Below, one piece after another: positions 3,115 to 21,859 of a stretch of 64,000 nucleotides of DNA; positions within the stretch are counted from its first letter, which is position 1, and every line of letters begins with the position of its first letter. The stretch comes from Fodinibius halophilus. GTDB taxonomy: Bacteria; Bacteroidota; Rhodothermia; Balneolales; Balneolaceae. A model generated the notes under the pieces. That model was given only the letters and a program-made list of their open reading frames with translations, searched no databases and was not told the origin of the DNA. The position numbers and the translations under genes are program-made. Location of the stretch: assembly GCF_011059105.1 (NCBI RefSeq), contig NZ_JAALLS010000003.1, positions 1 to 64,000 on the forward strand. The letters run 5' to 3'.

Positions 3115-4047
3115 TTATTGATTCAAGATCGCATAACCAAAACCGGTTTCTCCAAAACCGTTTCCGTTGTACACCAGGTATCGTTTACCGTCAAAAACGT
3201 AAGTTGAGCAGTATTCCTGCATAATAGAATCCCACCCGGTATCGCTAAACGATATTCCCATCTGTTCATCTTTGCGTGCCCAGCATACCCCATCTTCCGA
3301 CTCTGCATAACCCAGCCGATAACTCTTGGCAGGATCTTCTCGGTAATTGACCGCATTTCTATAGGAATAAAACATTTTGTAGATGCCGTCCTCCTTAAAC
3401 ACTACAGGCTTGCCTACCGCATCGGTAAAATCGTCATAACCGATACAGGTGACCCCTGTTTTTTTCCAGGTAATCCCATCATCAGAAACAGCATACTTCA
3501 CATCATAATAGGGCTCCGGCCACTCATTAATAACTTCCCAACCGGTACATGAGACGTACCACATTTTCCACTGTCCCTCATCTTTCATAACAAAAGGTGC
3601 CGTATTAAAATAGGGTTCGCTGTTTGCTCGATCGGCAACCGGACCTTCCGACAACTTTTCAAATGTAATCCCCCCGTCATAGCTAACGGCCAACCCAATT
3701 GATAAGCGGTACGAAACCGTTACCTGGGGATTCCAACCAATGTAGTATAATAGCTTTCGATTGCCGTCATCCACAATACTGGAAGGCATAATTCCACTAT
3801 CATCAAAGGTACCGAGAGCCCCTAAATCAAGAATACGCTTATTGTGAATACTGCGTATATTTTCAGGCTTGGCCGGATCAACTTCAATAAAAGTGGGAAT
3901 ACTTCGACCTTGCCCATCCCGATCCGAAAAATAGATTCGCAATGTTGAATCATCGATCAGATCACACACAGGCAATGCCGCATAATTGCTAATCCAGCTA
4001 TCACTATCTTGGGGATTAAAAATCCGCCCTTTCTTCGTCCATTCCAT
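3115..4047 (-). CDS. Five-bladed beta-propeller glycosidase-fold protein
   Basis: The 310-aa protein shows the repeating blades of the GH43/GH32/GH130-type five-bladed propeller: IYFSDRDGQGRS, GTFDDSGIMPSSIVDDGNRKLLYYIG, AVSYDGGITFEK, NTAPFVMKDEGQWKMWYVS, AVSDDGITWKKTG, GYAESEDGVCW. There is no signal peptide, so it is cytoplasmic and unlikely to be a nutrient-degrading enzyme. In sugar-biosynthesis loci such proteins may act as phosphorylases, glycosyl transferases or trimming enzymes (inference). Its start is one base after the stop of the upstream acyltransferase gene, so the two are translationally linked. The exact family cannot be fixed by eye. Confidence 0.6.
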   Translation of the reverse strand: MEWTKKGRIFNPQDSDSWISNYAALPVCDLIDDSTLRIYFSDRDGQGRSIPTFIEVDPAKPENIRSIHNKRILDLGALGTFDDSGIMPSSIVDDGNRKLLYYIGWNPQVTVSYRLSIGLAVSYDGGITFEKLSEGPVADRANSEPYFNTAPFVMKDEGQWKMWYVSCTGWEVINEWPEPYYDVKYAVSDDGITWKKTGVTCIGYDDFTDAVGKPVVFKEDGIYKMFYSYRNAVNYREDPAKSYRLGYAESEDGVCWARKDEQMGISFSDTGWDSIMQEYCSTYVFDGKRYLVYNGNGFGETGFGYAILNQ

Positions 4048-4048
4048 A

Positions 4049-4708
4049 TTAATACACTTCGTAACTTGGTTTTGAACCTTTCCGCTTGGCGGGATTACCT
4101 ACATAAATACCCCACTCTTCGGTTTCTTGTGATACAAGACTAGCCCCCATTGCCAAGAGCGTGCCCTTACGAATGGTCGAGTAATCTCTGATAGCAGCAT
4201 TGACGCCAAAAAAGCAGTTGGATTCGATTACACAATGCCCCGACATTACTACGTGCGAGGTAAAAAAGACATGGTCTTTAATTTCGCCGTGATGACCGAT
4301 ATGATTTCCACTCCAGAGAACTACATTATTTCCGATCTTAGTGAACGGTTGTAATGTGTTATCCTCAAGGATAAAACAGTTTTCTCCTATATCGTTATCA
4401 CAGTATGATACCCGGGAACTCAAATAGGTTACATAATCATACCCTTTTTCTTTGCCTTCCAGGTATACCTTCTCCCGATTCCTATTCATATTGCGCGCTG
4501 TCATAGGGGCAAAAAGACGGAATTTTGACGGAGAAAAGTAATTATTAACTTCCTCAAAGGGTACTACCGGCAGCCCTCTAAATTCCTCATCTCCCATATA
4601 CTCCTCGTGAACTGTAAAACCCACTACATCATGATATGAATCATTCTGCAGATAATAGTGAGCCAGCTCGGCCGTATCTTGTAAACCGAACACTACTACT
4701 TTAGCCAT
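4049..4708 (-). CDS. PglD/NeuD/VioB-like sugar O- or N-acyltransferase
   Basis: This 219-aa protein has an N-terminal Rossmann-like half (MAKVVVFGLQDTAELAHYYL) and a C-terminal left-handed beta-helix with hexapeptide repeats (IGENCFILEDNTLQPFTKIGNN, IKDHVFFTSHVVMSG, IESNCFFGVNAAI). This is the PglD/NeuD plan, in which an acyl group from acyl-CoA goes to an aminosugar nucleotide. His residues in the GNHIGHHGEIKDH stretch are candidate catalytic bases. With the DegT aminotransferase it would complete a make-amine-then-acylate pathway, as VioA/VioB do for flagellin viosamine in Pseudomonas syringae. A 98-base gap separates it from the upstream gene. Confidence 0.72.
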   Translation of the reverse strand: MAKVVVFGLQDTAELAHYYLQNDSYHDVVGFTVHEEYMGDEEFRGLPVVPFEEVNNYFSPSKFRLFAPMTARNMNRNREKVYLEGKEKGYDYVTYLSSRVSYCDNDIGENCFILEDNTLQPFTKIGNNVVLWSGNHIGHHGEIKDHVFFTSHVVMSGHCVIESNCFFGVNAAIRDYSTIRKGTLLAMGASLVSQETEEWGIYVGNPAKRKGSKPSYEVY

Positions 4709-4806: not shown

Positions 4807-7551
4807 CTACTCAATATGGTTTGTAATTATTTCTATCAGGCGCTGTGCCTGTTTCTCTACCGTGAATGAATCCAGTACAATCTGTCGGCCTCTTTCAGCC
4901 TTGGCCTGTACCTTTTCCCAATCATCAGTAAAATATTGGATTAGCGAATCTTTTTGCTGATTAATAAGCCCGATCGCCTCGCTGCCAAAGGTTTCTTCAA
5001 GGGCAGGATTATAATCAGATACTACATAACAGCCGTTGGCCATGCCACTGCGCACCCTGCCGTGAATGGTATCCGGATAGGTAGGGTTGCAATTTAACAC
5101 CACCTTGGACCGGGCATACAACCGGTCAAGCTCAGATATTTCCATTTCATTTACCCAGTTGATATTCTTCATATCATCCAAAAAAGGAAGAACCTTTCCT
5201 ACTTTAGAATGAGCCGTAATGGTAATATTAAGGTCATCCGGTAAGGCTGGCAGCATTTTAAGCATCTGCAGGCGTCGTTTTTTGCGGATAGTCCAGTCGA
5301 CTAAACTTAGAACTTTTAACCAACACTTATCCTCATTTGTTTTCGGATTATCAAAAGCATAACGAGAACCATACGCTTGCTTATACGTGCGTTGAAATAT
5401 TTGATATATGGATTCTTCGTAATTGCGCAGGGCTGATTTAAAAAGCTCCATCCCAATTTTTAGTGCAGGTTTCCCAATCACCTTTAGCTTTTCATCCAGC
5501 GTACGCTGATCGCGGTAAAACTTATGGATACCCCAGGGAATCAACATATCTATTGGGCGTTTTGCCAGGGGAACAATATCCTGCGCACCTCCATCTTTCG
5601 GTGACGGCGGTGGTGGATGTTCCGATAGTACGACATCATTATCACCTGAAAAGATCTCATCATATTCCTCTTTCACAGAAGGTAAAGGCGAAACCAAAGT
5701 TGTATTTCCCAGCTGCTCCATCCTATGCCACATAAACTCTGTATAGGGGTGATCTCCCAACAATCCAAATACCGGCACATCCAATAGCTCAAACAGGTTC
5801 CCTGTCACATTAAGCTGAGAGCTTACCGAAAGATCAAACCCCATAATACCGGTATAAAAAACATGCCCTTCATTATGAGAGGCTTCAACGACTTTCTGAA
5901 CAAAGTCAGGACTTTCGCCGGAAATCACACTAACCCCAACACCTTGACGTTCAATTTCAGCAGCGAGTTTATGAGTCCGAGCTTCATGGATGCCGTGCGC
6001 CCCTCCTTTTACTCCCGGAACGGTCAGATAAATATGAGACAATACGGAGTTCTGTCGGTCATTCACCAGACGGCCATTTCTGTTAACCGATAAGTTTGAC
6101 TCTTTTTCGTTCCAAAACCAGCGATTTCTGCTTATTTGACCAACAGCTACCCCCTCTTCCTGTCCATCACTAAGCAGGTAATTTTTCTTCGCCATCAACG
6201 CAACCGCTTCAGGATTGTCTTTCAGAACCTTAATCAACTCTTTTTCCTGTTCGCCGCTCATGTACACAGAGGCATCTTTCATATTGATCCATGCCTCTAC
6301 GGTACGCACAAAAAGCCATTTTGAGAAATCTGTTTGTACTTTGGTTTCATCCTGTTCAGGTAGTGGAGGTAAAAAGGGTAACGAATTTGCAGCCGCTTCC
6401 TCAGCACCTACTGTTTCCATCAATCCCTTTACCATATCAATAGCCTGGGTACGCTTTCCCAATTCATACATACTGCGGGCATAACTCATTGCAGCAGAGA
6501 TCGTCCCATTTCCCTTATTAAATATTTCAATAAGTCGCTGTGCAGCATCTAACATCATAGCCCCTTTACGAGAGCGGGCAGAAGCATCTGCTGATGTTTC
6601 CGGAGATATCTGATTGGCGGCACAAAGAATATTTAATGCTTCCAGGTATTCTCTATGCTGCTCACCAGCTACCTTATCTTCCCAATCTTCAATCTTATTT
6701 TTACTCCACCTGAGATCACCGAGCACTTCTTTCCATTTGTCTTTCCGGGGAATATCAAACGAAACCTCCTCATCAAAAATCCAACCCTTCTTCTTAAACT
6801 CTTCTACACGGTCTTGGTGAATACCAACTATATTCATCAAGTAGGGATCTTCATCGGCTTTGGCCTCATGATCTACAAGCAGTTCAGGACCGGGGATATA
6901 ATCAAACAACCGATAACCTGCTTTCTGCAACTGTTCTTCTATGGCAGCTTGTAAATCCTCTTTTGCATCCAATGATACGAGCACTACAGGTTGTTCTTGG
7001 GTCAGCAACTGTTGGGCTCCCTTCAGAGCTTTATCCTCCATGCCGTTTACATCCAGCTTAATGACATCCACAGAACAGTTCCCTACATAATTCCACCATG
7101 CATCCAAGGTGGTCATAGCAATAGCCTCTTTTCCTTTCTTGTCAACTGTATTCCGTTCTGGCGTATCAGCAATGCGTAGCCGGCCCTTACCAACCTTGTC
7201 ACCCAACGCTTTTTCAACAATTTCAAGCTGGTCAAAATTATTCTTCTGCTTGCTGCTTTCGAGATATTTCCGCGTGGTAGCACTTGGTTCAAAAGCGTAT
7301 ACCATACCATGCTCTCCCACTTCTCGGGCCATAGGTAACGAAAAGGTCCCAAAAGAGGCACCACCGTCAACCACATTCATGCCCGGCTGCAGATATTCAC
7401 GTAAAAAATCCAATTCCTGCTCAAACCAATCCTCTTGCTCTAATAACACCACCGAGGTCATCGTCTGAATATCATCCGGTGTACATACAATAATACCATC
7501 TTTGGTTTCTATTTGATACATATTACGCTCTGGTATTGCTGAGTTGCTCAT
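4807..7551 (-). CDS. FkbM methyltransferase / glycosyltransferase fusion
   Basis: This 914-aa protein has three parts. Residues ~15-225 are an FkbM-type SAM methyltransferase: SAM loop VVDGGASFGTFSLPMA at 60-75, then YAFEPS, then MTTLDAWW and IKLDVNGME at ~146-172. Residues ~250-490 are mainly helical. Residues ~500-914 are a glycosyltransferase-like region ending in a group-1/CgeB-like block (LDRLYARSKVVLNCNPTYPD, HGRVRSGMANGCYVVSDYN). The same three parts occur in the same order in the 2068-aa protein of this operon, which additionally has a GT2 domain inserted; the two are paralogues. It starts two bases after the WbqC stop. Predicted role: transfer and O-methylation of sugars in the flagellin glycan (inference). 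Confidence 0.75.
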   Translation of the reverse strand: MSNSAIPERNMYQIETKDGIIVCTPDDIQTMTSVVLLEQEDWFEQELDFLREYLQPGMNVVDGGASFGTFSLPMAREVGEHGMVYAFEPSATTRKYLESSKQKNNFDQLEIVEKALGDKVGKGRLRIADTPERNTVDKKGKEAIAMTTLDAWWNYVGNCSVDVIKLDVNGMEDKALKGAQQLLTQEQPVVLVSLDAKEDLQAAIEEQLQKAGYRLFDYIPGPELLVDHEAKADEDPYLMNIVGIHQDRVEEFKKKGWIFDEEVSFDIPRKDKWKEVLGDLRWSKNKIEDWEDKVAGEQHREYLEALNILCAANQISPETSADASARSRKGAMMLDAAQRLIEIFNKGNGTISAAMSYARSMYELGKRTQAIDMVKGLMETVGAEEAAANSLPFLPPLPEQDETKVQTDFSKWLFVRTVEAWINMKDASVYMSGEQEKELIKVLKDNPEAVALMAKKNYLLSDGQEEGVAVGQISRNRWFWNEKESNLSVNRNGRLVNDRQNSVLSHIYLTVPGVKGGAHGIHEARTHKLAAEIERQGVGVSVISGESPDFVQKVVEASHNEGHVFYTGIMGFDLSVSSQLNVTGNLFELLDVPVFGLLGDHPYTEFMWHRMEQLGNTTLVSPLPSVKEEYDEIFSGDNDVVLSEHPPPPSPKDGGAQDIVPLAKRPIDMLIPWGIHKFYRDQRTLDEKLKVIGKPALKIGMELFKSALRNYEESIYQIFQRTYKQAYGSRYAFDNPKTNEDKCWLKVLSLVDWTIRKKRRLQMLKMLPALPDDLNITITAHSKVGKVLPFLDDMKNINWVNEMEISELDRLYARSKVVLNCNPTYPDTIHGRVRSGMANGCYVVSDYNPALEETFGSEAIGLINQQKDSLIQYFTDDWEKVQAKAERGRQIVLDSFTVEKQAQRLIEIITNHIE

Positions 7552-7553
7552 TG

Positions 7554-8258
7554 TTAAAGGAGTGTAAAATCATCTAATTTCTCATTAACTTGTTCTTTAG
7601 GCAGGTGTATCAACAGGTCCAAGATAGACAGACCACTGATAAACTCATCTGATGACTGCTTGTACGGGGTCAGGGTAGGGTCTAAAAAATAGAGTTGTAT
7701 CCCCTTTTCATTGAAGTATCCCTTATCATATAACTCTTTACCGCCAATCGCATTGATGTACGTATCAGCACCCTCTTTTTGGGCAATATCGATCAGCCGG
7801 TCTGCTTTATCGAGATCTCTGTTTTGGGGATATGCTTTCGAAGAGATCTTAAAAGAAGTATCCATATTCAAATAGTCAGCTACTAGCTGCACCGATTCTA
7901 TAGCCATCTCTGCAATGGTTTTATTTTCGGGAGATAGCACTTTCTTAAATAGGGCATCTACGGCCTCAAAGTTATCCTGTCCATTGTAAGCGTGGAAAAA
8001 CGTCTTTTTTATCTTTTGCAGTCCCGGGTGCCCGTGATTTACCTCAGTATCTTTAATCAAATCATTTTGACTGGGCTTGACACACGGTATTGAAAAAAGA
8101 AATTTATTTCCCTGTAATAATATATTGTTCCGATTGATCCATCCCCTTTTGATGAAATTCACATCATCATAGAAAATGAAGGTATCTACTGCTTTCACAA
8201 GCTGAAAATACCCTACATAGGGGAAAAAATACGGCTGCATTATTGCAATACGCTTCAC
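7554..8258 (-). CDS. WbqC-like protein of glycan biosynthesis
   Basis: The 234-aa sequence starts KRIAIMQPYFFPYVGYFQLV and contains FYDDVNFIKRGWINRN, both hallmarks of the WbqC family (PF08889), found in O-antigen and flagellar glycan loci. Its enzymology is not settled; it is often next to sugar aminotransferases and is thought to modify or acylate amino sugars. The length is typical. The start overlaps the stop of the DegT gene by four bases, and the next gene starts two bases after its own stop, so it is embedded in the operon. No membrane segment. Confidence 0.8.
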   Translation of the reverse strand: MKRIAIMQPYFFPYVGYFQLVKAVDTFIFYDDVNFIKRGWINRNNILLQGNKFLFSIPCVKPSQNDLIKDTEVNHGHPGLQKIKKTFFHAYNGQDNFEAVDALFKKVLSPENKTIAEMAIESVQLVADYLNMDTSFKISSKAYPQNRDLDKADRLIDIAQKEGADTYINAIGGKELYDKGYFNEKGIQLYFLDPTLTPYKQSSDEFISGLSILDLLIHLPKEQVNEKLDDFTLL

Positions 8259-9343
8259 GATACTTTTGCTAATTCATACTTATTTATAATTCCAATGATC
8301 TGATCTTGCTCTTCTGCTTTTAATCCATGGTACAAGGGAAGACACAAAATACGTTTTGATATGCTTTCGGCATGGGGCGCAGGTTTATACTCCACATAAT
8401 CCAGCTCATTTAAGCTCGGATAGAAATAACGTCGCGGATAGATCTCATTTTCTTCCAGCGATTGTTTAACGTGGAGCAATCGCTCTTCACTTTCAAAAAT
8501 CAGCGGAAAATAGGCATAGTTAAAATGCGCTTTGGGATTGAGCTTTATACCACGGGTATTTTCATTTCTTAACAAAGAAATATATCGCAACCACTGGTTT
8601 TTACGGCGTTCCATTATTTCATCAATATATTTCAGGTTACATAATCCCATTGCGGCATGGTATTCCGAGTTTTTGCCGTTGATTCCTACACCGTCAAACT
8701 CCCCGGGACCATCGTGGCCAAAATTTCGAAGTCTCGATATTTTGTGCTCCAATTCCGGGTCACAGGTTACAAGCCCGCCCCCTTCTGTGGTATGAAAGAG
8801 TTTGGTTGCATGAAAACTTACCACACTAATATCTCCATAATGGAATACCGACTGTCCCTTGTACTGCCCTCCAAAACAATGGGCAGCATCGTATATCACT
8901 TTTAAATCATACTGGTTGGCTATCTTTTCTATAGCTTCAATATCACAGGGGTTTCCATAAACATGGGTAGCCACAATGCCTGTTGTATTGGGCGTTATTG
9001 CCTTTTCAATCGCGGCGGGATTGATATTTAATGTTTCCGGATCGATATCCACAAATACGGGCTTTGCTCCTTCCCACACGATACTGCTGGTGGTTGCCAC
9101 GTACGAAAACGGAGTGGTTATGACCTCACCTTCGAGTCCCAGTGCTTTTATTGCAATCTGTAAGGCCATGGTACCATTGGAGACAAAACGCATATGGTCA
9201 ACTTTCAAATAGTTTTCCAAATCTTTCTCCAAACCCTGGACCAGGGGACCGTTATTCGTCAGATATTCTCGCTGCCAAATACCTTTCAGATATTCTTCGT
9301 ACTCTTTTTGTGGCGGCATAAATGGTTTTGTAATAGGAATCAT
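8255..9343 (-). CDS. DegT/DnrJ/EryC1/StrS sugar aminotransferase (VioA-like)
   Basis: This PLP-dependent enzyme converts a nucleotide-linked keto-sugar to an amino sugar. Visible features, numbered from the upstream GTG: substrate/cofactor loop FVSNGTMALQIAIKAL (~57-72), YDAAH (Asp ~156) and SFHATKLFHTTEGG with the Schiff-base Lys at ~185. I place the start at ATG 9343, because AGAGGTGAATAGCACG puts a Shine-Dalgarno nine bases before it; a GTG at 9355 would add four residues. Closest known functional types are VioA, RffA and PglE-like enzymes. No 4,6-dehydratase or nucleotidyltransferase is present here, so the keto-sugar must come from genes elsewhere. It begins 20 bases after the large glycosyltransferase gene. 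Confidence 0.88.
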   Translation of the reverse strand: MIPITKPFMPPQKEYEEYLKGIWQREYLTNNGPLVQGLEKDLENYLKVDHMRFVSNGTMALQIAIKALGLEGEVITTPFSYVATTSSIVWEGAKPVFVDIDPETLNINPAAIEKAITPNTTGIVATHVYGNPCDIEAIEKIANQYDLKVIYDAAHCFGGQYKGQSVFHYGDISVVSFHATKLFHTTEGGGLVTCDPELEHKISRLRNFGHDGPGEFDGVGINGKNSEYHAAMGLCNLKYIDEIMERRKNQWLRYISLLRNENTRGIKLNPKAHFNYAYFPLIFESEERLLHVKQSLEENEIYPRRYFYPSLNELDYVEYKPAPHAESISKRILCLPLYHGLKAEEQDQIIGIINKYELAKVS

Positions 9344-9362
9344 CGTGCTATTCACCTCTGTA

Positions 9363-12300
9363 TTATATTCGTTGATCCATCTCTTTTAGCAATGCTTTGC
9401 TAAAATCATCCATGGTATATGTGCTATCCATGGTCTCTTTACCTTGGTCAGCAATCTGCTGAAAGGCCTTACTGTTCTCCTTTATCACTGTTGGCAGGTC
9501 GGTCTTATCATTCAGGAACAACAGGTGTTCTCCGTGATTAAATCTCTTGGAGAGTCCGGGTATCCGGTCGGTAATAAGACAACATCCCCATTTCATACTG
9601 TTTTTAACGCGTCCGTGCAGGTAATCGGGATACGTAGGATTACTATTTAGCACTACCTTTGAATTAGAGTACAACCTGTCCAGGTGCTCGGCTGTCACGC
9701 GTCCCTTCCATGTAATATTCTTGTTATTGTAGATTCGTTTAAATCCTTTGACCTGCTCCTGCTTGGCCGTAATGCAAATACTATATTGATTGGGCAAGCC
9801 AGCGAGCTGTTTCAATATTTCGAATCGTCGCCAGTGGCGTATATGCTGATCTACCGTATGTAAGACTTTCATCCACTGATAATCAGTCTGTGTTTTCTGC
9901 CTGTTGAACTGATGTTTACTACCTACAACCTCCTCATAGCATTCTTGAAAAACAGAGAGCACCGAGACGTCATAAATATGTTTCATCTTTTTAAGCAGCA
10001 GTTTTCCTACCAATGCAAAGTTGCCGCCTATCTTAGACAAAGCCTGCTTCACCAGCTGAGTATTGGCATAGTTGCCATTCAGCGACCAGGGAACCAGGAT
10101 ATCTATTTCTCGATCTTCCATTCTGAAACTTGCTTTCTTCTCGTCGATCTCGGTAATGGCAGGAAAGTAATCCATCAAAAATGACTCATTCCCTCCGGGA
10201 CCCAGTACCTCCAGCTCATCGAGCATGGACTGTTCCTGAGCGTAAAAGATCGTTTTCGAGCCCATCTTCTTGAGACGCTGCCACATAAAGTCGGCAAACA
10301 GATGATCACCAAGTGTGGCAAACACCTTAACATCCAACAGGTCAAAAAGGTTAGCACTTTGTACGCGGTCCACTTCCACCCACGAAGGATACCCCATGGT
10401 ACCGGCATGTACCGCGTACCCGTCTTTTTTACTTATCTCAACAATGCGTTTTAAGAAATCCTGATCGGTGAGGTATAAAATGTCCGCAGAAATACCCTCT
10501 TCACGAGTTCTCTCTGCCAGCATTGATGCCCTTTTGTTATGTAACCCGTAGGCCATATCTGAATTCCCGGGCGCCAAATAGATCACCTTTTCCAGATTCT
10601 GGTAGTTTGGCTTGTGCTCTTTTTTTGACCTGCCGTTATTCGTCTCTATAGAAACTTCAGGCCAACTATTAATCACATCCTCTATATGGGGATGCATAGC
10701 ATCGATCAACTTTTTTGAAACACTCAGTAACTTCCCCTTGCGATCCTGGCTTTTGGGTGACTTTATATAATCATGTCGCAAAACAGCATCTGAAAAGTAG
10801 ATCAGCTTTTCTTTTTCATATCCTTTTTGGGCATAACGATAACTCAGTTCCATACCTTCATGATAAACCAGCAGGCTGTCGTTCCATCCCCCTACATCAA
10901 AAAATGCGGCCGGCGAAAAGGAGGTGTTCCCCTCTATAAAACATACCGCAGACTTTGTACTCGTCCCTAGATAATAGTGCCACGGAGTATCACTGCCCTT
11001 TGTTTTAGGTTGGTAAACTCCTCGTGCCACGTACAGATCATGATCTGCATGAATATCTTTATGGGCTTGCAACATCCCTTCTTCCGGAATACCGTCATCA
11101 TCTACAAACATGAAGAGGTCTCCCTTAGAAAACAGGGCTCCAAAATTTCGTGCCATGCAGGCACCGGCATTTTGCTCCAGGTGAATCAAAAGATCTACAT
11201 AATCGGCAATAGAATCTGTCTTTTCCTTGTCGAGACCATTACTCACAAAAATAACTTCTGTATGCTTATCACTCTGCCGATCAATCTCTTTAAGGTTTTT
11301 TATGACCTCCTCATTAACGTTATTACTGACAACAATTACGGAGAGTTCGGGAGAATCAATTTTGTTATTCTTTTCCACACAATCATAGAAATAGGAATAA
11401 AGAGCCTTTTTATGCTCCCAGCTTCTTTTTTCTAACTGAGCCAATAACTCTTCATCAATAGGTTCAGACAGATCAGAGGTGGAGGCCAACAGGGCCTCAA
11501 CCATGAGAAAAAAGGCCATACTATTGGTTCCATCCTGATCTATCTTTGCCTGACATTCTTCAATTATTGTGCCTGTATATTGGGCAAACTCGCCGGAAAC
11601 TATTTTATCGGCAATTTTCAGTGCCCATTCTCCTTTCTGTTCACTAATTGGAGCCTGCCAAAAGTCCTCCGGTATTATCTGTTCCTGTACATTCTGGTTA
11701 CTGCTGGCAGTTTTATTGCTTTCTCCATTTAGACTGGGTGATATTCCATTCTTTTTAGCACTATCAGTCCAAAGTAAGTTTGCATTGCCCCCTACATCTT
11801 TTAAAATCCTTTCCTTTTTTTCATTAGTTAACTCATTACCTTTTTTCAGAGCTAACAGATCCAAACGACGTTCAAACCAATCCGTCACTTCAGGGTTCCC
11901 TTCAAGCACACTCAACATTTTATTCTCGCCACTCATAAATGTAGTAGGATCTTTCAAGACTGCCCAAGCTTCCACAATGCGTACCGTCAACCATTTACCA
12001 AAGTCTGTCTGGATACTGGTACTATCCTGTTGCTTCAGAGGTGGTAAAAACGGCAGATCTACCGTTATCTCATTTCCGGAATTGATCGTCTGCATCAGCT
12101 CTCTTATCATTTCCAGAGCCTGGGCCTGTTTACCAAGCATATTCATAAGCCGCACATAAGTCACTGCTACAGCAATACCGGCTTTGCCATTATTAAAGAG
12201 TGTGATAATCTGCTGTGCAGCAGCCAATAACATCGCTGCCTTCCTGGATCGTGATGAAGAATCATCAATTTCTAACTGCTCGGCTGCACAAATTAAGTTT

Positions 12301-15300
12301 AGCGCCTGCAAGTACTCATCATACTCACCAGAAGAAGTATTAATTTTCCATTCAGCAACCTGCTCATCGGCCCATTCGAGACCGCATAAAACCTTTTCCC
12401 AAGCTACCTGCTCCGGTGCTTCCACTGAAATATCAGCATCAAAAATAAACCCTGACTTTTTTAACTCTTCCTCTCGATCCCCTTTTACAGCGATCAAGTT
12501 CATCATATACGGATCAATCCCAGCTTCGGGATCATGCGCAGCCAAAAGGCCGGGACCGGGAATATATTCATACAGATTGTATCCATATTTCTCGAGTTGC
12601 TGAATGACAGATGCAAAATGTTCTTCGCTCTCTCCAACAGAAATAATAATAACAGGGGAAGTCTCAGAAAGCATCGTTGCTGCTCCTGCCAATACATCCG
12701 ACTCCATGCCATTAACATCTATTTTGAACAGATCTACACCTGGGCGTCCTTCGAAATCCCACCAAGCATCCAGGGTGGTAACAGAAACATCTTCCCCTTC
12801 TGTATTAAGGATGTTAAACTCTGGGTTATCTGCCTTTTCCAGCTCAGCTGTACCTGTTTCGCGCCCAAGCGCACGTTCGATAACCTGAAGCTGAGCAAAA
12901 CTATTCTCTGCTTTACTTTCTTCAAGATAGTGGCGCGCAACCTCCCCGGGCTCAAAAGCATATACCGCTCCGTCGCTGCCAACTTTCTTTGCCATTGGCA
13001 GTGCATAAACCCCGAAAGCAGCACCGGCATCAATAACAGTCATGCCGGGCTGCAGAAATTCACGTGCAAAGTCTAATTCATTCTCAAACCAATCATCCTG
13101 TTCCAACAGTACATAGGCAGTAAGGATATCCAGGCTGGCCGGGGTACATATCGTAGTGCCATCCTTGGTTTCAATCTGAAAACCTTGTGACCGTTTCCCA
13201 TTTTTCTTTAGCTGACCATTGGTGCCATTAACCAATGACTCGAGGTTAGTTTTTCCATTCTTTGCAGTCTTAGAAATGGTATCCAATGCCTCATCAGAAA
13301 CCGTCCCACTTTCAACTGCTTGTCCATTCTCTTTTTGTCCCATAGAATCTACCTTTTCTTGCTTAGCATCACTGTCAGTCTCATTACCTCTACCATCTAC
13401 CGCAATTGGCGGAGTAACTGCAGGACCGTTGGTCAGTTGTTTGGTCTGTTCATCAGTCAATTCATCTACTGCTATATGATCTTGCCATTCATCTTTATTC
13501 TCATTTTGTCCATTTACCCACTGCTTCCACATCTCTCGCAATGCCACAGCCAGATGCGCGCCAAATCGCTTGCCGTCACAAACGGGTGAATTACTAATTT
13601 TTTCTCGCAATGCTTTTCGTGTCTTAGCCAAGGCAGGCAGATCTGCTGCCAGCTCCTTAACTTTTTCAGCATACGCATCCCAGCTGCCCACCACCCACTC
13701 ATCTAAACCAACGTTGAGCAGGTGCGTCATAGAGTGACGTCCGGCAAAAGTGGGCCCCGGCAGCGTAACAACAGGCACGCCCATATAAATTGCTTCGCAT
13801 GTGGTTAACCCACCGGAATAGGGCCATGGGTCGAGTGCAATATCCACCTCATTATATGCTTCCAAGTGCTTATCATGAGGCGTATGTCCTTTAAAAAGTA
13901 CCCGACCCTCAGTAATATCGTGCTCTGTCAACACTCCTGTGATATGATCTCTTACAGATTGAGTATCATACTGATTACTCTTTAATAACAGACGGCTATC
14001 GGGGATCTCATTCATTATCGCGGCCCACTGCTTCAATACCTCATCATTAACTTTCGTCGGGTTATTAAAGCAACCCAAAGTTACATACCCATTTTCAGAA
14101 GCAGGTAATGAATTTACTTCAGGGGCATATGAAGGAGGTGTAAAACTAATATAATCATCCGGCAGGCGGACCAACTTTTCGGTATAATATTCTTCTTCTC
14201 CTTTTGGCGTTTCATACCAATCACTGATCAGGTAGTCAAAGGCGGGCAATCCTGTTGTATTAAACAAGCCTCCTACCCATTTTACCATAACCGGGGCCGG
14301 CTCTTGCGCCATTACATCCAGGCAATTATCTGCGGCATGCCCCGAAAGATCTACTAAAATATCCAGATCATCTTCACGAAGCAGCCCTTCAATCACGCTA
14401 GCATCGTAGCCAACAATGGATCGCCATTCATCAATATTCTTGTGTATGCGCTGAGTAACAAAATCAAACTTATTATTTGTCGTGTAGCAAAAGAGCTCAA
14501 ACTGCTCTTCCGGCAGCTGCTCCAGGGCTCCGGCAATCATCCAGCCCACAGGGTGTTGGCGAAAGCCACCCGACACGAATCCCACTCTCAGACGTTTTTC
14601 AATATCCTTATTTACGGGTATAGGTCTTGTGGGTGCATCCTTGGGCATAAAATCCTGCACAAGACGTTCGTGCTCTTCAAAAATGTGCTCCCTGCTGTTA
14701 TTGGGATTATAGTGCAGGGCCATTAAATAGTTAGAGATGGCTCCCTGGTTCCCCGGCAGGTCTTTAATTGCACGGCGGTAGTTTTTTTCCGACTCTTCAA
14801 AACGGCTTAACTCCTGCAAGCACAGCGCATAGTTTACTCTTAGTATACCGTGGTCAGGACGTTTACTTAGCAACTGCTCATACAGTGAAACCGCCCGATC
14901 GTAATCTCCTTTTGACTTGTATATTTCTGCCTCAGTAACAAGAATGGGTAACTGGCCGCCATGTCGGTCTTTTGCTTCCTTTATATACTCTTCAGCCTCT
15001 TCGTACTTACCTTTCTTTTTCGTGACCTCAGCCTTTTCCAGAATCGCTCTTTTATGGTTTTCGTCCAGTTGTAACGTAATATCAAACAGCTTTAGGGCTT
15101 GGTCCAGATCTCCTTGGTCACGATAAATTTCCCCAATGCGATAAGCTACCCCGGCATTTTTGGGATCCAGTTGGTTAGCCTTTGTATAACATTCCAGGGC
15201 ATCATCCAGCCTCGCCTGTGCCCGATATATCGACCCCAGGTTCAACCATGCCTTTAATAGTTCAGAATTACGTTTCAAGGCTTCATTCGCATATTTTTCG

Positions 15301-15569
15301 GCTTCGCCAAACTGCCCCAGATTAAAATAGTTCACCGAAAGCATATGGTAAGTTTCCGGCGCTTCCGATCCTTTTTCAACAGCAGCGTTTAAATGCTTTA
15401 TCGACGCTTTATGATTCCCATTCTGTGCCAGAGCAGTACCCATCAAATGATGAGCAACCCAAGGCAATGGTCTATTTTTACCATTAAGTATAGGACGCAA
15501 TTCTGCTATGGCCTGTTTAGGCTTATTCCATTCTAAATACTTTCTCGCTTTTTTAATCCGTTTTTTCAC
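9363..15569 (-). CDS. 2068-aa TPR-OGT-FkbM-GT2-GT multidomain glycan synthase
   Basis: First gene of the island, starting at a GTG. Domains in order: TPR repeats (~35-290); O-GlcNAc-transferase-like GT41 catalytic region (~325-690; LRVGFVSGGFRQHPVGWM, ILVDLSGHAADN, LGCFNNPTKVN and the UDP-site block DPWPYSGGLTTCEAIYMGVP at 580-599); low-complexity Asn/Gly/Lys linker (~690-795); FkbM methyltransferase (~798-1030; SAM loop VIDAGAAFGVYALPMA, then FKIDVNGME); helical region (~1050-1390); GT2 family domain (~1405-1620; SVIVVSNN and metal-binding FVDDDG at 1488-1493); C-terminal glycosyltransferase-like region (~1660-2068; LYSNSKVVLNSNPTYPDYLHGRV). No signal peptide or membrane segment. TPR-OGT proteins add the first sugar to Ser/Thr; the other domains would extend and methylate the chain (inference). 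The C-terminal parts are paralogous to the 914-aa protein. Confidence 0.85.
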   Translation of the reverse strand: MKKRIKKARKYLEWNKPKQAIAELRPILNGKNRPLPWVAHHLMGTALAQNGNHKASIKHLNAAVEKGSEAPETYHMLSVNYFNLGQFGEAEKYANEALKRNSELLKAWLNLGSIYRAQARLDDALECYTKANQLDPKNAGVAYRIGEIYRDQGDLDQALKLFDITLQLDENHKRAILEKAEVTKKKGKYEEAEEYIKEAKDRHGGQLPILVTEAEIYKSKGDYDRAVSLYEQLLSKRPDHGILRVNYALCLQELSRFEESEKNYRRAIKDLPGNQGAISNYLMALHYNPNNSREHIFEEHERLVQDFMPKDAPTRPIPVNKDIEKRLRVGFVSGGFRQHPVGWMIAGALEQLPEEQFELFCYTTNNKFDFVTQRIHKNIDEWRSIVGYDASVIEGLLREDDLDILVDLSGHAADNCLDVMAQEPAPVMVKWVGGLFNTTGLPAFDYLISDWYETPKGEEEYYTEKLVRLPDDYISFTPPSYAPEVNSLPASENGYVTLGCFNNPTKVNDEVLKQWAAIMNEIPDSRLLLKSNQYDTQSVRDHITGVLTEHDITEGRVLFKGHTPHDKHLEAYNEVDIALDPWPYSGGLTTCEAIYMGVPVVTLPGPTFAGRHSMTHLLNVGLDEWVVGSWDAYAEKVKELAADLPALAKTRKALREKISNSPVCDGKRFGAHLAVALREMWKQWVNGQNENKDEWQDHIAVDELTDEQTKQLTNGPAVTPPIAVDGRGNETDSDAKQEKVDSMGQKENGQAVESGTVSDEALDTISKTAKNGKTNLESLVNGTNGQLKKNGKRSQGFQIETKDGTTICTPASLDILTAYVLLEQDDWFENELDFAREFLQPGMTVIDAGAAFGVYALPMAKKVGSDGAVYAFEPGEVARHYLEESKAENSFAQLQVIERALGRETGTAELEKADNPEFNILNTEGEDVSVTTLDAWWDFEGRPGVDLFKIDVNGMESDVLAGAATMLSETSPVIIISVGESEEHFASVIQQLEKYGYNLYEYIPGPGLLAAHDPEAGIDPYMMNLIAVKGDREEELKKSGFIFDADISVEAPEQVAWEKVLCGLEWADEQVAEWKINTSSGEYDEYLQALNLICAAEQLEIDDSSSRSRKAAMLLAAAQQIITLFNNGKAGIAVAVTYVRLMNMLGKQAQALEMIRELMQTINSGNEITVDLPFLPPLKQQDSTSIQTDFGKWLTVRIVEAWAVLKDPTTFMSGENKMLSVLEGNPEVTDWFERRLDLLALKKGNELTNEKKERILKDVGGNANLLWTDSAKKNGISPSLNGESNKTASSNQNVQEQIIPEDFWQAPISEQKGEWALKIADKIVSGEFAQYTGTIIEECQAKIDQDGTNSMAFFLMVEALLASTSDLSEPIDEELLAQLEKRSWEHKKALYSYFYDCVEKNNKIDSPELSVIVVSNNVNEEVIKNLKEIDRQSDKHTEVIFVSNGLDKEKTDSIADYVDLLIHLEQNAGACMARNFGALFSKGDLFMFVDDDGIPEEGMLQAHKDIHADHDLYVARGVYQPKTKGSDTPWHYYLGTSTKSAVCFIEGNTSFSPAAFFDVGGWNDSLLVYHEGMELSYRYAQKGYEKEKLIYFSDAVLRHDYIKSPKSQDRKGKLLSVSKKLIDAMHPHIEDVINSWPEVSIETNNGRSKKEHKPNYQNLEKVIYLAPGNSDMAYGLHNKRASMLAERTREEGISADILYLTDQDFLKRIVEISKKDGYAVHAGTMGYPSWVEVDRVQSANLFDLLDVKVFATLGDHLFADFMWQRLKKMGSKTIFYAQEQSMLDELEVLGPGGNESFLMDYFPAITEIDEKKASFRMEDREIDILVPWSLNGNYANTQLVKQALSKIGGNFALVGKLLLKKMKHIYDVSVLSVFQECYEEVVGSKHQFNRQKTQTDYQWMKVLHTVDQHIRHWRRFEILKQLAGLPNQYSICITAKQEQVKGFKRIYNNKNITWKGRVTAEHLDRLYSNSKVVLNSNPTYPDYLHGRVKNSMKWGCCLITDRIPGLSKRFNHGEHLLFLNDKTDLPTVIKENSKAFQQIADQGKETMDSTYTMDDFSKALLKEMDQRI

Positions 15570-15618: not shown

Positions 15619-15635
15619 CGCAAATAAAGTGCCAG
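15619..15635 (-). promoter_or_regulatory. Sigma-54 promoter of the glycan island
   Basis: The minus-strand sequence CTGGCACTTTATTTGCG has GG and GC exactly ten bases apart, with TGGCAC at -24 and TTTGC at -12. This is an almost perfect match to the sigma-54 consensus (TGGCAC-N5-TTGC). It lies about 50 bases before the GTG of the large glycosyltransferase gene, giving a short leader of about 40 nt. Confidence 0.75.
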
Positions 15636-16167: not shown

Positions 16168-16494
16168 ATGCAAAACCCACAAAAAGTATATGAGCGGCAA
16201 GCAGTTCTAAATTCCTCACCACTACGACTGGTGGTTAAATTGTATGATTTAGTATTGCAGGCTACATACCGAAAAGATAGAGAACGTATAAAGGAAGTAC
16301 TTTCAACTCTTATCGAAAGCCTAAACTTTGATCACGAGCCGGCCGATGAGCTTTTTGAACTGTATAGATATTGCCAGGATTTGGCACGACAAGAAGAATT
16401 TTCAGAAATAAGAGAAATATTGGAACCTCTGCGAGATGCCTGGGATACAGCTGCCAACAACGAACAAGCTGACCCACAAAATGCAAATGCCTAG
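16168..16494 (+). CDS. fliS: Flagellin-specific export chaperone FliS
   Basis: A 108-aa helical protein beginning QNPQKVYERQAVLNSSPLRLVVKLYDLVLQA, which matches the conserved FliS start (NxYxxxxVxxASPxxLxxxLYD). FliS binds the C-terminal D0 helix of flagellin in the cytoplasm to stop premature polymerisation and deliver it to the export gate. The length is slightly short but normal. It is first in a fliS-fliD-fliT-like-flgM-like operon behind a sigma-28-like promoter, fitting late expression with flagellin. The last ~15 residues are Asn/Ala/Gln-rich and probably disordered. Confidence 0.88.
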   Translation: MQNPQKVYERQAVLNSSPLRLVVKLYDLVLQATYRKDRERIKEVLSTLIESLNFDHEPADELFELYRYCQDLARQEEFSEIREILEPLRDAWDTAANNEQADPQNANA

Positions 16495-16527: not shown

Positions 16528-17934
16528 ATGCAATCAATAAGCAGTCTTTTAAATCAAGCGAACCCATACGAAAAGTTTGTTCAACAGCTGGTACAACTTG
16601 AAAGCCAAAAGAAGTTTAAGCTTCAGGTTGAAAAGAGTGATATCAGCGACCAACAATCAGCGTTGGGACAGGTAAGTTCTGCGGTATCCAGTTTTACCAA
16701 TAAGATTGAAGAACTGGACAGCCAAACAGAAAATCACTTTAGTCCTCTTAAATCATCTGTAACAGATGAAAGCGTAATCCGCGTTGATTCTATATCCGGT
16801 TTAGACCAACCGAACGATTATGACATCACTGTGAACCAGAAAGCAAAGAAAGATATTATGCTTTCAAATGTGATGGACGGTTCGGGCACTACACTGGTCG
16901 GAGATGGAGATGGATCGGTAGATATTACTATTGGAGACAAAACCGAAACTATTGCGGTCTCTGTTACCAACGATGACGGTACCAATAAAACTGACAAAGA
17001 GATTCTTGAATCTTTCTCCACAGAAATTAATAACCTGTTAGGTGAAGAGGCTGACAGTGATGTGTTTTCGGTGGACGATAGCGGTAATGTGCAACTATCT
17101 ATCAAAAGTGCTAAAACAGGCAATGATGAACGCGTACAGTTTGCTAATGCTACCGGTGCCCTGTCGACGGTAACAACAAATATGACGCACAATACCGATC
17201 CCACTAAACTTGATGCTAAATTTACGATCGACGGGATCAACTTTACTCGAGGTCAAAATAAAGTTGACGATGCTGTTTCGGGCATGACCTTTACTATCTT
17301 AGATGAACCCGGGACGCAAGAACAGATTTCGATAACAAAAGATCTGGATTCTGCTAAAGACAATATTAAGAGTTTCATTACCAAGTATAATGAAATGAAC
17401 AGCAAGATCCGGAACAAGACCTTTATTAATGGGGATACCGGTAAAAAAGGGCCCCTACAGGGTATGCGATCTATCCGAAATTTAAGCATTAACCTGCGTC
17501 AGCTTGCTTTAGGAGATATGGGCTCAGCAGCTGCCGGTGAGCATGATAATCTGGCTGATATTGGAATCGGCTTTAAAAAAGACGGTACCATGAAAGTTGA
17601 AGACAGCGGCATGCTGGAAGACGCCTTAAGCAACAATGCTGATGAAGTTAAGAACCTCTTTACTGCTGATGATTCCCCGGTTCAACAGATGTATGACAGG
17701 GCCGATACCTATACGCAAACCGGTGGAATTATTTCTTCACTGGAAAGTGGGCTGGACCAAAAGATCGATTTTCTTGAAAATCGCATTGAATCCGAAGAAA
17801 AATACCTGAAAAAATATGAAAAACGTCAGCGACAAGAATTCGCTGAGCTCCAACAGATGCAGATGGAGGGCCAGCGACAACTTCAGTCAATCCAGAGTCA
17901 ACAGGGTTCTCTAAGCTTAACCAGTAACTTCTAA
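16528..17934 (+). CDS. fliD: Flagellar filament cap FliD (HAP2)
   Basis: A 468-aa protein with a typical FliD layout. The N-terminal helical D0 segment (LNQANPYEKFVQQLVQLESQ) is followed by a beta-rich middle with LDAKFTIDGINFTRGQNKVDDAVSGMTFT, the conserved FliD_C entry motif. The C-terminal coiled coil contains YTQTGGIISSLESGLDQKID and ends in a Gln-rich helix. It caps the growing filament and folds flagellin at the tip. It lies 34 bases after fliS and six bases before the fliT-like gene. Confidence 0.92.
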   Translation: MQSISSLLNQANPYEKFVQQLVQLESQKKFKLQVEKSDISDQQSALGQVSSAVSSFTNKIEELDSQTENHFSPLKSSVTDESVIRVDSISGLDQPNDYDITVNQKAKKDIMLSNVMDGSGTTLVGDGDGSVDITIGDKTETIAVSVTNDDGTNKTDKEILESFSTEINNLLGEEADSDVFSVDDSGNVQLSIKSAKTGNDERVQFANATGALSTVTTNMTHNTDPTKLDAKFTIDGINFTRGQNKVDDAVSGMTFTILDEPGTQEQISITKDLDSAKDNIKSFITKYNEMNSKIRNKTFINGDTGKKGPLQGMRSIRNLSINLRQLALGDMGSAAAGEHDNLADIGIGFKKDGTMKVEDSGMLEDALSNNADEVKNLFTADDSPVQQMYDRADTYTQTGGIISSLESGLDQKIDFLENRIESEEKYLKKYEKRQRQEFAELQQMQMEGQRQLQSIQSQQGSLSLTSNF

Positions 17935-19013: not shown

Positions 19014-20459
19014 ATGAAAGAGCGAGTACTTATAGTTGAAGATGATACAATGTTGCTCGAGTTTTTAGATGAAAACTTGAGCATGAACGGTTATGATACC
19101 AAAGCATTTGAATCACCGGTTGAGGCCAAAGAATACATAGATACTCACGATGTTGATCTGGTACTTACTGATGTAAAAATGGATGAGATGACCGGTGATG
19201 AGATATTGGCCTATGTCACTGAGACCTATCCCGAGACGGGCGTGATTATGATGACCAGCTTTGGCAACATCACGCATGCAGTAAGAGCCCTGCAGAAAGG
19301 CGCATATGATTATATAACCAAACCTTTTAAAGCCAAAGAAATTCTCTTTCGGATTAATCGCTTTTTTGAGGCTGGTGAATCTTTCCATAACAGGAAAAAG
19401 ATTGAAGCCCTGGCCGGCAGCAAAAAAAGAGATCAACAAGATGAGTCGGAGGATGAAGGCGAAGAAGGTGATTCCGATGAAGCCCTAAAGCAGGGCGAAA
19501 AGCGATTTATCGGAGATGATCCCCAGATCAAGAAATTACTGGATATTCTTCCTAATATTGCCCAAAGCAATGCCCCGGTTATGATCCAGGGAGAAAGCGG
19601 AACGGGGAAAGAGGTGTTTGCTAACCTGATCCATCAAAACAGTAACCGCACTGACGAAAATTATGTTAAAATAAACTGTGCCAACCTGCCTAAAGAGCTG
19701 GTTGAAAGCACGCTCTTTGGCCATGTTAAAGGAGCCTTTACTGGTGCTATTTCTGACAAGAAAGGAGCCTTTGAAGAAGCCAATAACGGCACTATACTGC
19801 TTGATGAGATCACCGAAATTGATATTAACATTCAGGCTAAGCTCCTGCGTGTGCTGCAAGAAAATGAGTTTCAACGAGTAGGCGGCCAAAAAACGATCGA
19901 ATGCGATGTACGCGTTATAGCTACCTCAAACAGAAACATAGCAGAGACCATTGCAGACGGTAATTTCAGAGAAGACTTGTACTACCGGCTTAATGTTTTT
20001 CCGATCTCTATTCCTCCTCTTCGAGAACGCAGAGAAGATATCCCCCTGCTGGTCAGCCATTTTGTAGATCGGTATACCAATCAGTATGGGCTAGATAACA
20101 AAGAGGTTTCGGATGAGCTTATGGAATTCTTAAAAAATAAGAAATGGCACGGCAATGTTCGCGAGTTGGAGAATAAAATACACCGCGGGGTCATCCTCTC
20201 AACCAATAACGATGTAATTACGCTGGACCATATCGAGAAAAATATGTTTTCAAAGGTAGATCTGGAGGTCAGTGGCGAGGTCCTATCCGACTTACCGCTG
20301 ATGTCTATTGAAGATATGGAGCTTCAGCTTATTAAAAAGGCTTTGGAACATACCGAAGGAAATCAAAAAGAGGCGGCTAAAATCTTAGGTATTACCGATC
20401 GTACCATCCGTAATAAGTTGAAAAAAGCCACATCTGATTCTGAAGACGAAGAAGAATAA
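19014..20459 (+). CDS. NtrC-family sigma-54 activator (FlrC/FlgR-like)
   Basis: A 481-aa response regulator in three parts. Receiver domain ~1-120: acidic pair D10/D11, phospho-acceptor D53 in LVLTDVKMDEMTGDE, Lys in YITKPFK. A highly acidic linker lies at ~138-160. The AAA+ domain at ~163-395 has Walker A GESGTGKE and the sigma-54-contacting GAFTGA loop (VKGAFTGAISDKKGAF). The C-terminal Fis-type HTH contains NQKEAAKILGITDRTIRNKL. It should hydrolyse ATP to open sigma-54 promoters; the sigma-54 sites before flgB, flgF and the glycan island are its likely targets. Its kinase partner is probably the orphan kinase at about 59.7 kb. Regulator type is secure; the flagellar role is inferred from context. 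Confidence 0.9.
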   Translation: MKERVLIVEDDTMLLEFLDENLSMNGYDTKAFESPVEAKEYIDTHDVDLVLTDVKMDEMTGDEILAYVTETYPETGVIMMTSFGNITHAVRALQKGAYDYITKPFKAKEILFRINRFFEAGESFHNRKKIEALAGSKKRDQQDESEDEGEEGDSDEALKQGEKRFIGDDPQIKKLLDILPNIAQSNAPVMIQGESGTGKEVFANLIHQNSNRTDENYVKINCANLPKELVESTLFGHVKGAFTGAISDKKGAFEEANNGTILLDEITEIDINIQAKLLRVLQENEFQRVGGQKTIECDVRVIATSNRNIAETIADGNFREDLYYRLNVFPISIPPLRERREDIPLLVSHFVDRYTNQYGLDNKEVSDELMEFLKNKKWHGNVRELENKIHRGVILSTNNDVITLDHIEKNMFSKVDLEVSGEVLSDLPLMSIEDMELQLIKKALEHTEGNQKEAAKILGITDRTIRNKLKKATSDSEDEEE

Positions 20460-20506: not shown

Positions 20507-21859
20507 TTACACAATATTAGCGACCATACTTTTGGCTTTATCCAGTCGGTTTGTCTTGGTGAGGGTTACAATGAGTCTTCGTTTGTAGGTTCGATCTTCG
20601 GGATGGGCTTTATGTAACTTCGTATATACTTGCGAGACATAATCATGCCATTTTCTACTCATAAACAAGGTCATTATCTCTCCCAACTCTTCACGGCTTT
20701 CTTCATCCAGGTTCTCCGGCAGCTTATCTCCGAACATGCGTTCAAAAAGATACACAGCCCGCTTGTAATCGTCCAGTTCTACCGACATCACTAATACTTT
20801 TTTAAGCAGTGAACGATCAATATCGCCTCGTTTATAAGAGAATAGTTTGTCAAAATAATTGGCTGCCGCCTTTCTGTCTCCACTCTTTAATGCAACATTA
20901 GCCAAGTTAACCAAGGTCTGTTCTTCGTCAATATTGCGGTCAAAATTAGCACGCGAATATAACGAAAACCGTCGGTAGTATTGACTCAGTGTTTCGTGTG
21001 CCTTTTTCCACTCCTTCTTTAGCTCATATATTCTATACTGAATAAGGTATGGCAAACTCTGTAACGATTCCGCTTTTAGCGACTCTTCGGTCAGTGTCAT
21101 AGCATTTGTCCACTTGTGCTGTTCTGTTAAACAACTGGCAAGGCCGTTAACGGCTGCCAAGCGATCATACGGCAGAAGCTTTTCCATCTTCAGCAATTGT
21201 CGATATTGGGCAGCTGCTCGTATATATTTTTTGTTATTAAAATACCGTTCTCCCTGTACCAAATATAGTTTAGGAGAGTATTCTTTAACCGAAAGCTCTT
21301 CATCAATATCGATATGGCTGATGGGATTGCTCTCTCGTTCAATTATAATAGGATGATTAGAAAGCTCAATATCATGGCCGCGAATATACTGCGTACAATC
21401 AGGCAGATTGCGACCTGAAAATATACTTGCCCCATTTTGGGCGGCGGTATTGATTAAGCGTATCTGATAAAACTGACGACTACGATCTTCTTTCGCTTGG
21501 CGAATGAGCGTTGGAGTCCATGTACGATCACTCAAAGAATGTTTATCCGGAAAACTACTAAGTCGTATGGTTTCATCATCTTCGACAAACAGCACCCAGG
21601 TTTTACACACCTGATTGAGCAGCGTGTTCCAAACCTCTGAACGCACACTATCCTCATCATAGCGATACCAATCCACATCATCCGGTACCCCTTCAGGACG
21701 TTCGGTTTTACCCGCTACCGTTACATGAGAAAACTGTTCGGCCCAATGCGATAGTTTCCTGTTATCTAGATATGCCATATCAGACAAAAACAAAACAACT
21801 TCTGCCCATTCCATACCACTATTATTTTTAGGTGATATTGGTGCTAGTTCATTATTCAT
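20507..21859 (-). CDS. GT2-like / TPR protein at end of flgK-flgL operon
   Basis: A 450-aa protein. The first ~120 residues resemble a reduced GT-A/GT2 fold (VVLFLSDMAYLDNRKL at the start and KTWVLFVEDDETIRLSSFP in place of the usual WVLWLDADE metal-binding element). Residues ~195-450 form TPR-like helical repeats (YLVQGERYFNNKKYIRAAAQY, VNLANVALKSGDRKAAANYFDKL). No export signal. It follows flgL by 59 bases on the same strand. By analogy with TPR-linked GT2 enzymes it could be another flagellar glycosyltransferase, but the catalytic residues are not fully convincing and a scaffold role is possible. The start might instead be Met16 (MEWAEVVL). Confidence 0.5.
   Translation of the reverse strand: MNNELAPISPKNNSGMEWAEVVLFLSDMAYLDNRKLSHWAEQFSHVTVAGKTERPEGVPDDVDWYRYDEDSVRSEVWNTLLNQVCKTWVLFVEDDETIRLSSFPDKHSLSDRTWTPTLIRQAKEDRSRQFYQIRLINTAAQNGASIFSGRNLPDCTQYIRGHDIELSNHPIIIERESNPISHIDIDEELSVKEYSPKLYLVQGERYFNNKKYIRAAAQYRQLLKMEKLLPYDRLAAVNGLASCLTEQHKWTNAMTLTEESLKAESLQSLPYLIQYRIYELKKEWKKAHETLSQYYRRFSLYSRANFDRNIDEEQTLVNLANVALKSGDRKAAANYFDKLFSYKRGDIDRSLLKKVLVMSVELDDYKRAVYLFERMFGDKLPENLDEESREELGEIMTLFMSRKWHDYVSQVYTKLHKAHPEDRTYKRRLIVTLTKTNRLDKAKSMVANIV

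Follow-up and report, generated by a model that had tools for sequence, protein, structure and literature searches.

A 2068-residue TPR-GT41-FkbM-GT2-GT-B chain encoded beside flagellin in Fodinibius halophilus: a candidate multi-domain flagellin O-glycosyltransferase

The first 64,000 nucleotides of contig NZ_JAALLS010000003.1 of the halophilic bacterium Fodinibius halophilus (assembly GCF_011059105.1; the genus was formerly Aliifodinibius, of the Balneolaceae, Balneolota), referred to here as the window, carry a giant gene in an operon that ends at flagellin. The gene lies on the minus strand, from a GTG start codon at 15569 to a stop codon ending at 9363, with no internal stop, and encodes a chain of 2068 amino acids that is the only GT41 enzyme of the genome. 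Judged from its sequence, this protein quite probably works in the cytoplasm as a multi-domain flagellin O-glycosyltransferase, starting, methylating and extending a glycan. An initial annotation, made from the DNA letters alone, had described the uninterrupted frame of 2068 codons with the right coordinates, leaving the strand unstated. A plus-strand reading of 9363-15569 is ruled out by many stops, and the internal plus-strand open reading frames of 150-200 residues were taken to be shadows of the gene on the minus strand. Mis-assembly, which the same annotation had named as one possible refutation of its reading, can be ruled out together with a chance frame, because full-length counterparts are encoded in two other genomes (2052 residues, 79% identity; and 2068 residues, 61% identity, the latter in Fodinibius roseus) and because the frame is under purifying selection. 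In a comparison of the window with genome G010, the proportion of nonsynonymous differences (pN) is 0.05-0.26 across the segments and that of synonymous differences (pS) 0.43-0.89, with pN well below pS in every segment; two linkers evolve fastest.

All of the domains named in the annotation (TPR, GT41, FkbM, GT2 and a second glycosyltransferase) are present, with Pfam scores above the curated cut-offs. The chain opens with a tetratricopeptide repeat (TPR) region matched by the Pfam TPR families (residues 1-300; 14670-15569, minus strand, as for all parts of the chain), followed by a GT41 domain (residues 310-690; 13500-14642; PF13844, Glyco_transf_41, 111 bits). This succession of a TPR region and a GT41 catalytic domain is the architecture of CAZy family GT41 (OGT/SPINDLY). 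The nearest solved structures to the GT41 part are SPINDLY (7y4i, 8dtf) and the OGT of Thermobaculum terrenum (5djs), and H339 and K506 of the chain, which align with H495 and K665 of SPINDLY, are invariant in 15 homologues. Beyond a fast-evolving linker (residues 691-800; 13170-13499) lies an FkbM methyltransferase domain (residues about 801-1010; 12540-13169; TIGR01444; PF05050, Methyltransf_21, 54 bits against a cut-off of 22.7), which keeps the S-adenosylmethionine (SAM)-binding motifs DAGAAFG and AFEP. Its AlphaFold model has a mean confidence (pLDDT) of 87.5, and Foldseek matches it to SAM methyltransferases, among them the FkbM structure 2py6. Next come a conserved all-helical module, evident as helices in the predicted model and without a Pfam match (residues about 1011-1235; 11865-12539), and a second fast-evolving linker (residues 1236-1389; 11403-11864); the initial annotation had mentioned neither this module nor the two linkers. 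In this chain order, the helical module was found only together with the FkbM domain. The remainder consists of a GT2 domain (residues 1390-1640; 10650-11402; PF00535, Glycos_transf_2, about 45-48 bits, cut-off 23.3), in which the DxD motif is present as VDDDG, and a C-terminal CgeB-like domain (residues 1650-2068; 9366-10622; PF13524, Glyco_trans_1_2, 53-63 bits, cut-off 25). The latter has a GT-B fold: Foldseek returns the GT4 enzymes BshA, MshA and PimA with a probability of 1.00. The GT2 domain matches solved GT2 structures weakly, and a search of solved structures with the GT2-CgeB alignment gave no match. From these motifs and folds the GT41 and FkbM domains look sound, and the elongating parts, GT2 and GT-B, are putative enzymes.

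The giant gene is the first of a minus-strand sugar-modification operon with short gaps, which ends at flagellin and has fliS and fliD opposite it. It is followed by genes for a DegT/DnrJ sugar aminotransferase (8255-9355; PF01041, 310 bits), a WbqC-family protein (7554-8258; PF08889), a paralogue of 914 residues with the FkbM, helical and CgeB parts and no TPR-GT41 (4807-7551), a NeuD/VioB-type sugar N-acyltransferase (4049-4708; TIGR03570, 131 bits, under the cut-off of 161), a beta-propeller protein with a weak match to mannobiose phosphorylases (3115-4047) and two sulfotransferase-like proteins, one at 2048-3103 (PF00685, 21.5 bits, cut-off 22) and one at 1022-2020, which has no Pfam match and was assigned by the sequence motif of its KTGTTSIQ loop only. 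The flagellin gene itself (3-806, minus strand; PF00669, 113 bits) is cut by the end of the contig, which begins at window base 1. A fragment of flagellin lies on another contig (G000:C4:21358-21495) and many relatives have two to four tandem flagellins; such tandem copies probably broke the assembly here. On the plus strand are FliS, the flagellin chaperone (16168-16494; PF02561), FliD, the filament cap (16528-17934; PF07195, PF02465), and an NtrC-type sigma-54 activator (19014-20459; PF00158, PF00072).

An exact match to a sigma-54 (-24/-12) promoter, TGGCACTTTATTTGC, is found on the minus strand at 15620-15634, 50 bp upstream of the start codon. Sites with at most two mismatches lie within 350 bp upstream of the gene in 28 of 31 homologous loci, compared with 14% of random windows drawn from the same 31 loci, and sites with at most one mismatch in 14 of the 31, compared with 2.6%; in 19 of the 28 loci the site is 30-60 bp from the start. 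Since the site is conserved and RpoN is encoded, the giant gene is probably transcribed with the flagellar programme. A second exact site of this type, at 32592-32606 on the plus strand, falls within flhA and close to where flhF starts.

The association with flagella extends across the order. In a survey of 129 Balneolales genomes, the gene and FlhA occur together in 35, FlhA occurs without the gene in 12, the gene without FlhA in four, and neither of them in 78 (Fisher p = 5.7e-17, uncorrected for kinship). FliD and/or flagellin genes adjoin the giant gene in every Balneolales locus read except L026, where the GT41 is distant and the genome lacks FlhA. The gene stands next to flagellin, as do those of TPR-GT41 flagellin glycosyltransferases. 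The O-glycan of flagellin, which the initial annotation had in mind, is the best target, and a well-supported one, on four grounds: the shared operon, the neighbouring fliS-fliD, the conserved promoter and the co-occurrence with flagella. In the window, FlhA, FlhB, FliD, FlgK, FlgL, FlgI and FliS are intact; the flagellar genes are both intact and constrained, although Fodinibius has been described as non-motile (PMC9909488). We found no report of flagellin glycosylation in Balneolota in the open-licence literature.

Comparison of the chains within Balneolales revealed a constant TPR-GT41-FkbM front and a variable back end, a point that the initial annotation had not seen. The GT2-CgeB end of the window is shared by three genomes (G000, G010, G011). 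The others end in CgeB alone (G005, G018, G088), GT2 with a GT4-like domain (G103), a GT2-like domain with a SAM methyltransferase (G004, G009, G041), a second FkbM domain (G001, G002, G003, G007, G022, G075, G110), a WecF-like GT56 (G038, G047, G048), a GT4-like domain (G120), an aminoglycoside-phosphotransferase-like kinase (G021) or other kinase-bearing tails (G020, G023, G077). Short members consist of TPR-GT41 alone (G095, G096) or of TPR-GT41-FkbM accompanied by a separate TPR-GT56 gene (G039, G040). Such a split chain, with the stand-alone TPR-GT56 gene next to the TPR-GT41-FkbM gene, is seen at L067 (3401-5095) and L068 (3919-5604), with BLAST and gene order as the sole basis for the L068 copy. 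A tree built from the TPR-GT41 part requires at least 17 changes of back end, and well-supported sisters carry unlike back ends (G041 and G038; G020 and G023; G003 as against G004 and G009). G011 and G005 are 77-78% identical in GT41 and FkbM, yet their back ends differ. Between the window and G010, pS is 0.54-0.93 in the front and lower, 0.38-0.53, in the back end and across most of the operon beyond it, which fits a separate history of the glycan cassette, although codon usage could also explain it. Taken together, the retention of the front half and the swapping of the back half in relatives suggest an assembly line for a protein-bound sugar with interchangeable ends.

The back end also matches the genes for donor sugars, and this too had gone unnoticed. 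Of the loci that could be scored, all 12 whose chain contains a GT-B or GT56 module, or has one next to it, encode a DegT aminotransferase downstream, and none of the 13 lacking such a module does. Weak GT2-like tails were scored as lacking it; when these tails are counted as glycosyltransferases the association persists (p = 2e-5). All five independent pairs on supported branches agree (p = 0.0625, the lowest value that five pairs can yield). In E. coli, WecF and WecE are a GT56 and a DegT enzyme that form a pair for 4-acetamido-4,6-dideoxygalactose, and for that reason the donor of the back end is, by analogy, probably a 4-amino-6-deoxyhexose. We restrict the association to Balneolales, because near the proteobacterial loci described below DegT was seen only at L128 and L144.

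Outside Balneolales, conserved GT41 peptides retrieved 53 TPR-GT41 loci, nearly all from Proteobacteria. Flagellin lies within 6 kb in 52 of the 53, and 52 of the 53 chains also continue for at least 200 residues past GT41 (median 522), with extra modules that include FkbM, GT2, GT56, sulfotransferase and SAM methyltransferase domains. These chains, and the methyltransferase-bearing GT41 enzymes published for enterobacterial flagellin glycosylation islands, in which all but the GT41-11 type have methyltransferase domains (De Maayer and Cowan, 2016, PMC4875605), mean that this kind of enzyme is already known in outline, and the earlier remark that a single-chain assembly line would be unusual in bacteria was overstated. 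Judging by the open-licence literature, the new features are the length and order of the chain, the exchange of back ends between close relatives and the match with donor-sugar genes; no description of a TPR-GT41-FkbM-GT chain was found there.

The known systems differ from the giant chain in instructive ways. The enterobacterial enzymes share the combination of a SPINDLY-type GT41 with methyltransferase domains; they belong to another phylum, and neither a TPR-GT41-FkbM-GT2-GT-B chain nor back-end exchange is described in the part of that work considered here (PMC4875605). FlmG of Caulobacter crescentus likewise joins a TPR region, which binds flagellin, to a glycosyltransferase region that O-glycosylates flagellin in the cytoplasm, and it is expressed with the flagellar programme; unlike the giant chain, it transfers pseudaminic acid and has two modules only, without a methyltransferase or further glycosyltransferase (PMC7591256). 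In Pseudomonas syringae, Fgt1/Fgt2 and VioA/VioB/VioM/VioT build a flagellin trisaccharide with an N-acylated, O-methylated 4-amino-4,6-dideoxyhexose (PMC3927599). The window operon has an aminotransferase and an acyltransferase of the same kinds, whereas the methyltransferase and distal transferase of P. syringae have genes of their own, located on a distinct viosamine island. SPINDLY and the T. terrenum OGT, the closest solved GT41 relatives, with the catalytic His and Lys of SPINDLY aligned, are single-enzyme TPR-GT41 proteins, and SPINDLY is a plant enzyme for other intracellular proteins.

The FkbM-helical unit was found in chain order only fused to TPR-GT41, except in the 914-residue neighbour in G000 and G010; over its full length, this paralogue most resembles the fused unit of G005 (49%). 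The simplest path to the chain would be fusion of TPR-GT41 to an FkbM-helical-CgeB unit, with later addition of GT2 and retention of a detached copy in the operon.

Considering how such a protein might act, the TPR region would dock flagellin, by analogy with FlmG (PMC7591256), and GT41 would place the first sugar on a Ser or Thr of flagellin. The FkbM domain would then methylate this sugar, and the GT2 and subsequently the GT-B domain would extend the glycan on a substrate kept close by. At least one later sugar might be an N-acylated 4-amino-6-deoxyhexose supplied by the neighbouring DegT, WbqC and NeuD/VioB-type enzymes, and the detached paralogue and the sulfotransferase-like proteins could finish the glycan before export. 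We infer flagellin as the substrate, and likewise the activity of each domain, the identity of the sugars and the order of action, the last from the domain order and the existence of members with TPR-GT41 only or TPR-GT41-FkbM.

Several observations weigh against this scheme. The ED motif of GT2 enzymes supplies the catalytic base, and the giant chain has EG at that place; three members read HEGMEL there and L062 reads HGGKEL. Thus the catalytic signatures that the initial annotation had described as intact hold for GT41 (H339/K506) and for the SAM motif of FkbM, and for GT2 only in part, where DDD is kept and EG stands in place of the usual ED. In the structure model, GT2 was predicted too poorly to be used (pLDDT about 20-42). 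A conserved Glu is usual in the nucleotide-binding motif of CgeB-type enzymes, and is replaced by Asn (RVKNSM); of six chains compared, G005 alone retains it. A GT41 sequence does not reveal the donor sugar, and the DegT association is limited by the p value of its five independent pairs and by classes drawn after the tails had been seen. Finally, the described species of Fodinibius are non-motile and their flagellar route has been reported as incomplete (PMC9909488).

A strict form of the assembly line would have flagellin remain bound to the TPR region while GT41, FkbM, GT2 and GT-B act in turn along the chain from its N to its C terminus, the glycan evolving by exchange of back ends and donor-sugar genes much as in polyketide and peptide synthases. 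The domain order is compatible with initiation, methylation and elongation; sequential action on one glycan goes a step further, and we put it forward tentatively, as less likely than not. The chain may instead be a fusion of former operon genes in which the domains work independently, with GT2 or CgeB serving as non-catalytic modules that bind acceptor or donor. This is a possible reading, somewhat short of an even chance, to which the motif deviations in GT2 and CgeB lend weight, as do the detached FkbM-helical-CgeB unit and the WecF-like GT56, fused in L059 and L064 and separate in L067 and L068; strong purifying selection in all domains and the recurrence of fusions with matched sugar genes argue the other way. 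A target other than flagellin, be it another extracellular flagellar protein (FliD, FlgL or FlgK) or a general set of proteins, is improbable: fliD, flgL and flgK do lie in the same cluster, but the operon ends at flagellin, at least one flagellin gene follows directly in many relatives, flagellin is near in 52 of the 53 proteobacterial relatives and FlmG provides a precedent (PMC7591256). That the gene is an unused or unexpressed relic of a lost flagellum, as the non-motile description and incomplete flagellar route might imply (PMC9909488), is very unlikely given the intact flagellar genes of the window, the exact sigma-54 promoter and the strong selection on every domain.

Little is understood of how a bacterium sets the make-up of the O-glycan on a given protein. 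If the giant protein is a flagellin O-glycosyltransferase, its family provides natural variants among close relatives, in which a shared front is combined with many back ends, and module swaps between them could ask whether the order of domains specifies the structure of the glycan. The family could also supply single-chain enzymes for glycosylating proteins, and it leads us to expect that the flagella of Balneolota are glycosylated.

Elsewhere in the window, a TPR protein of 450 residues (20507-21859, minus strand) adjoins flgL and is kept in most loci of the order Balneolales. Its N-terminal half has no Pfam or PDB match and contains the sequence LFVEDDE, which resembles the DxD motif of GT2 enzymes, so that this protein is possibly a second flagellar glycosyltransferase.

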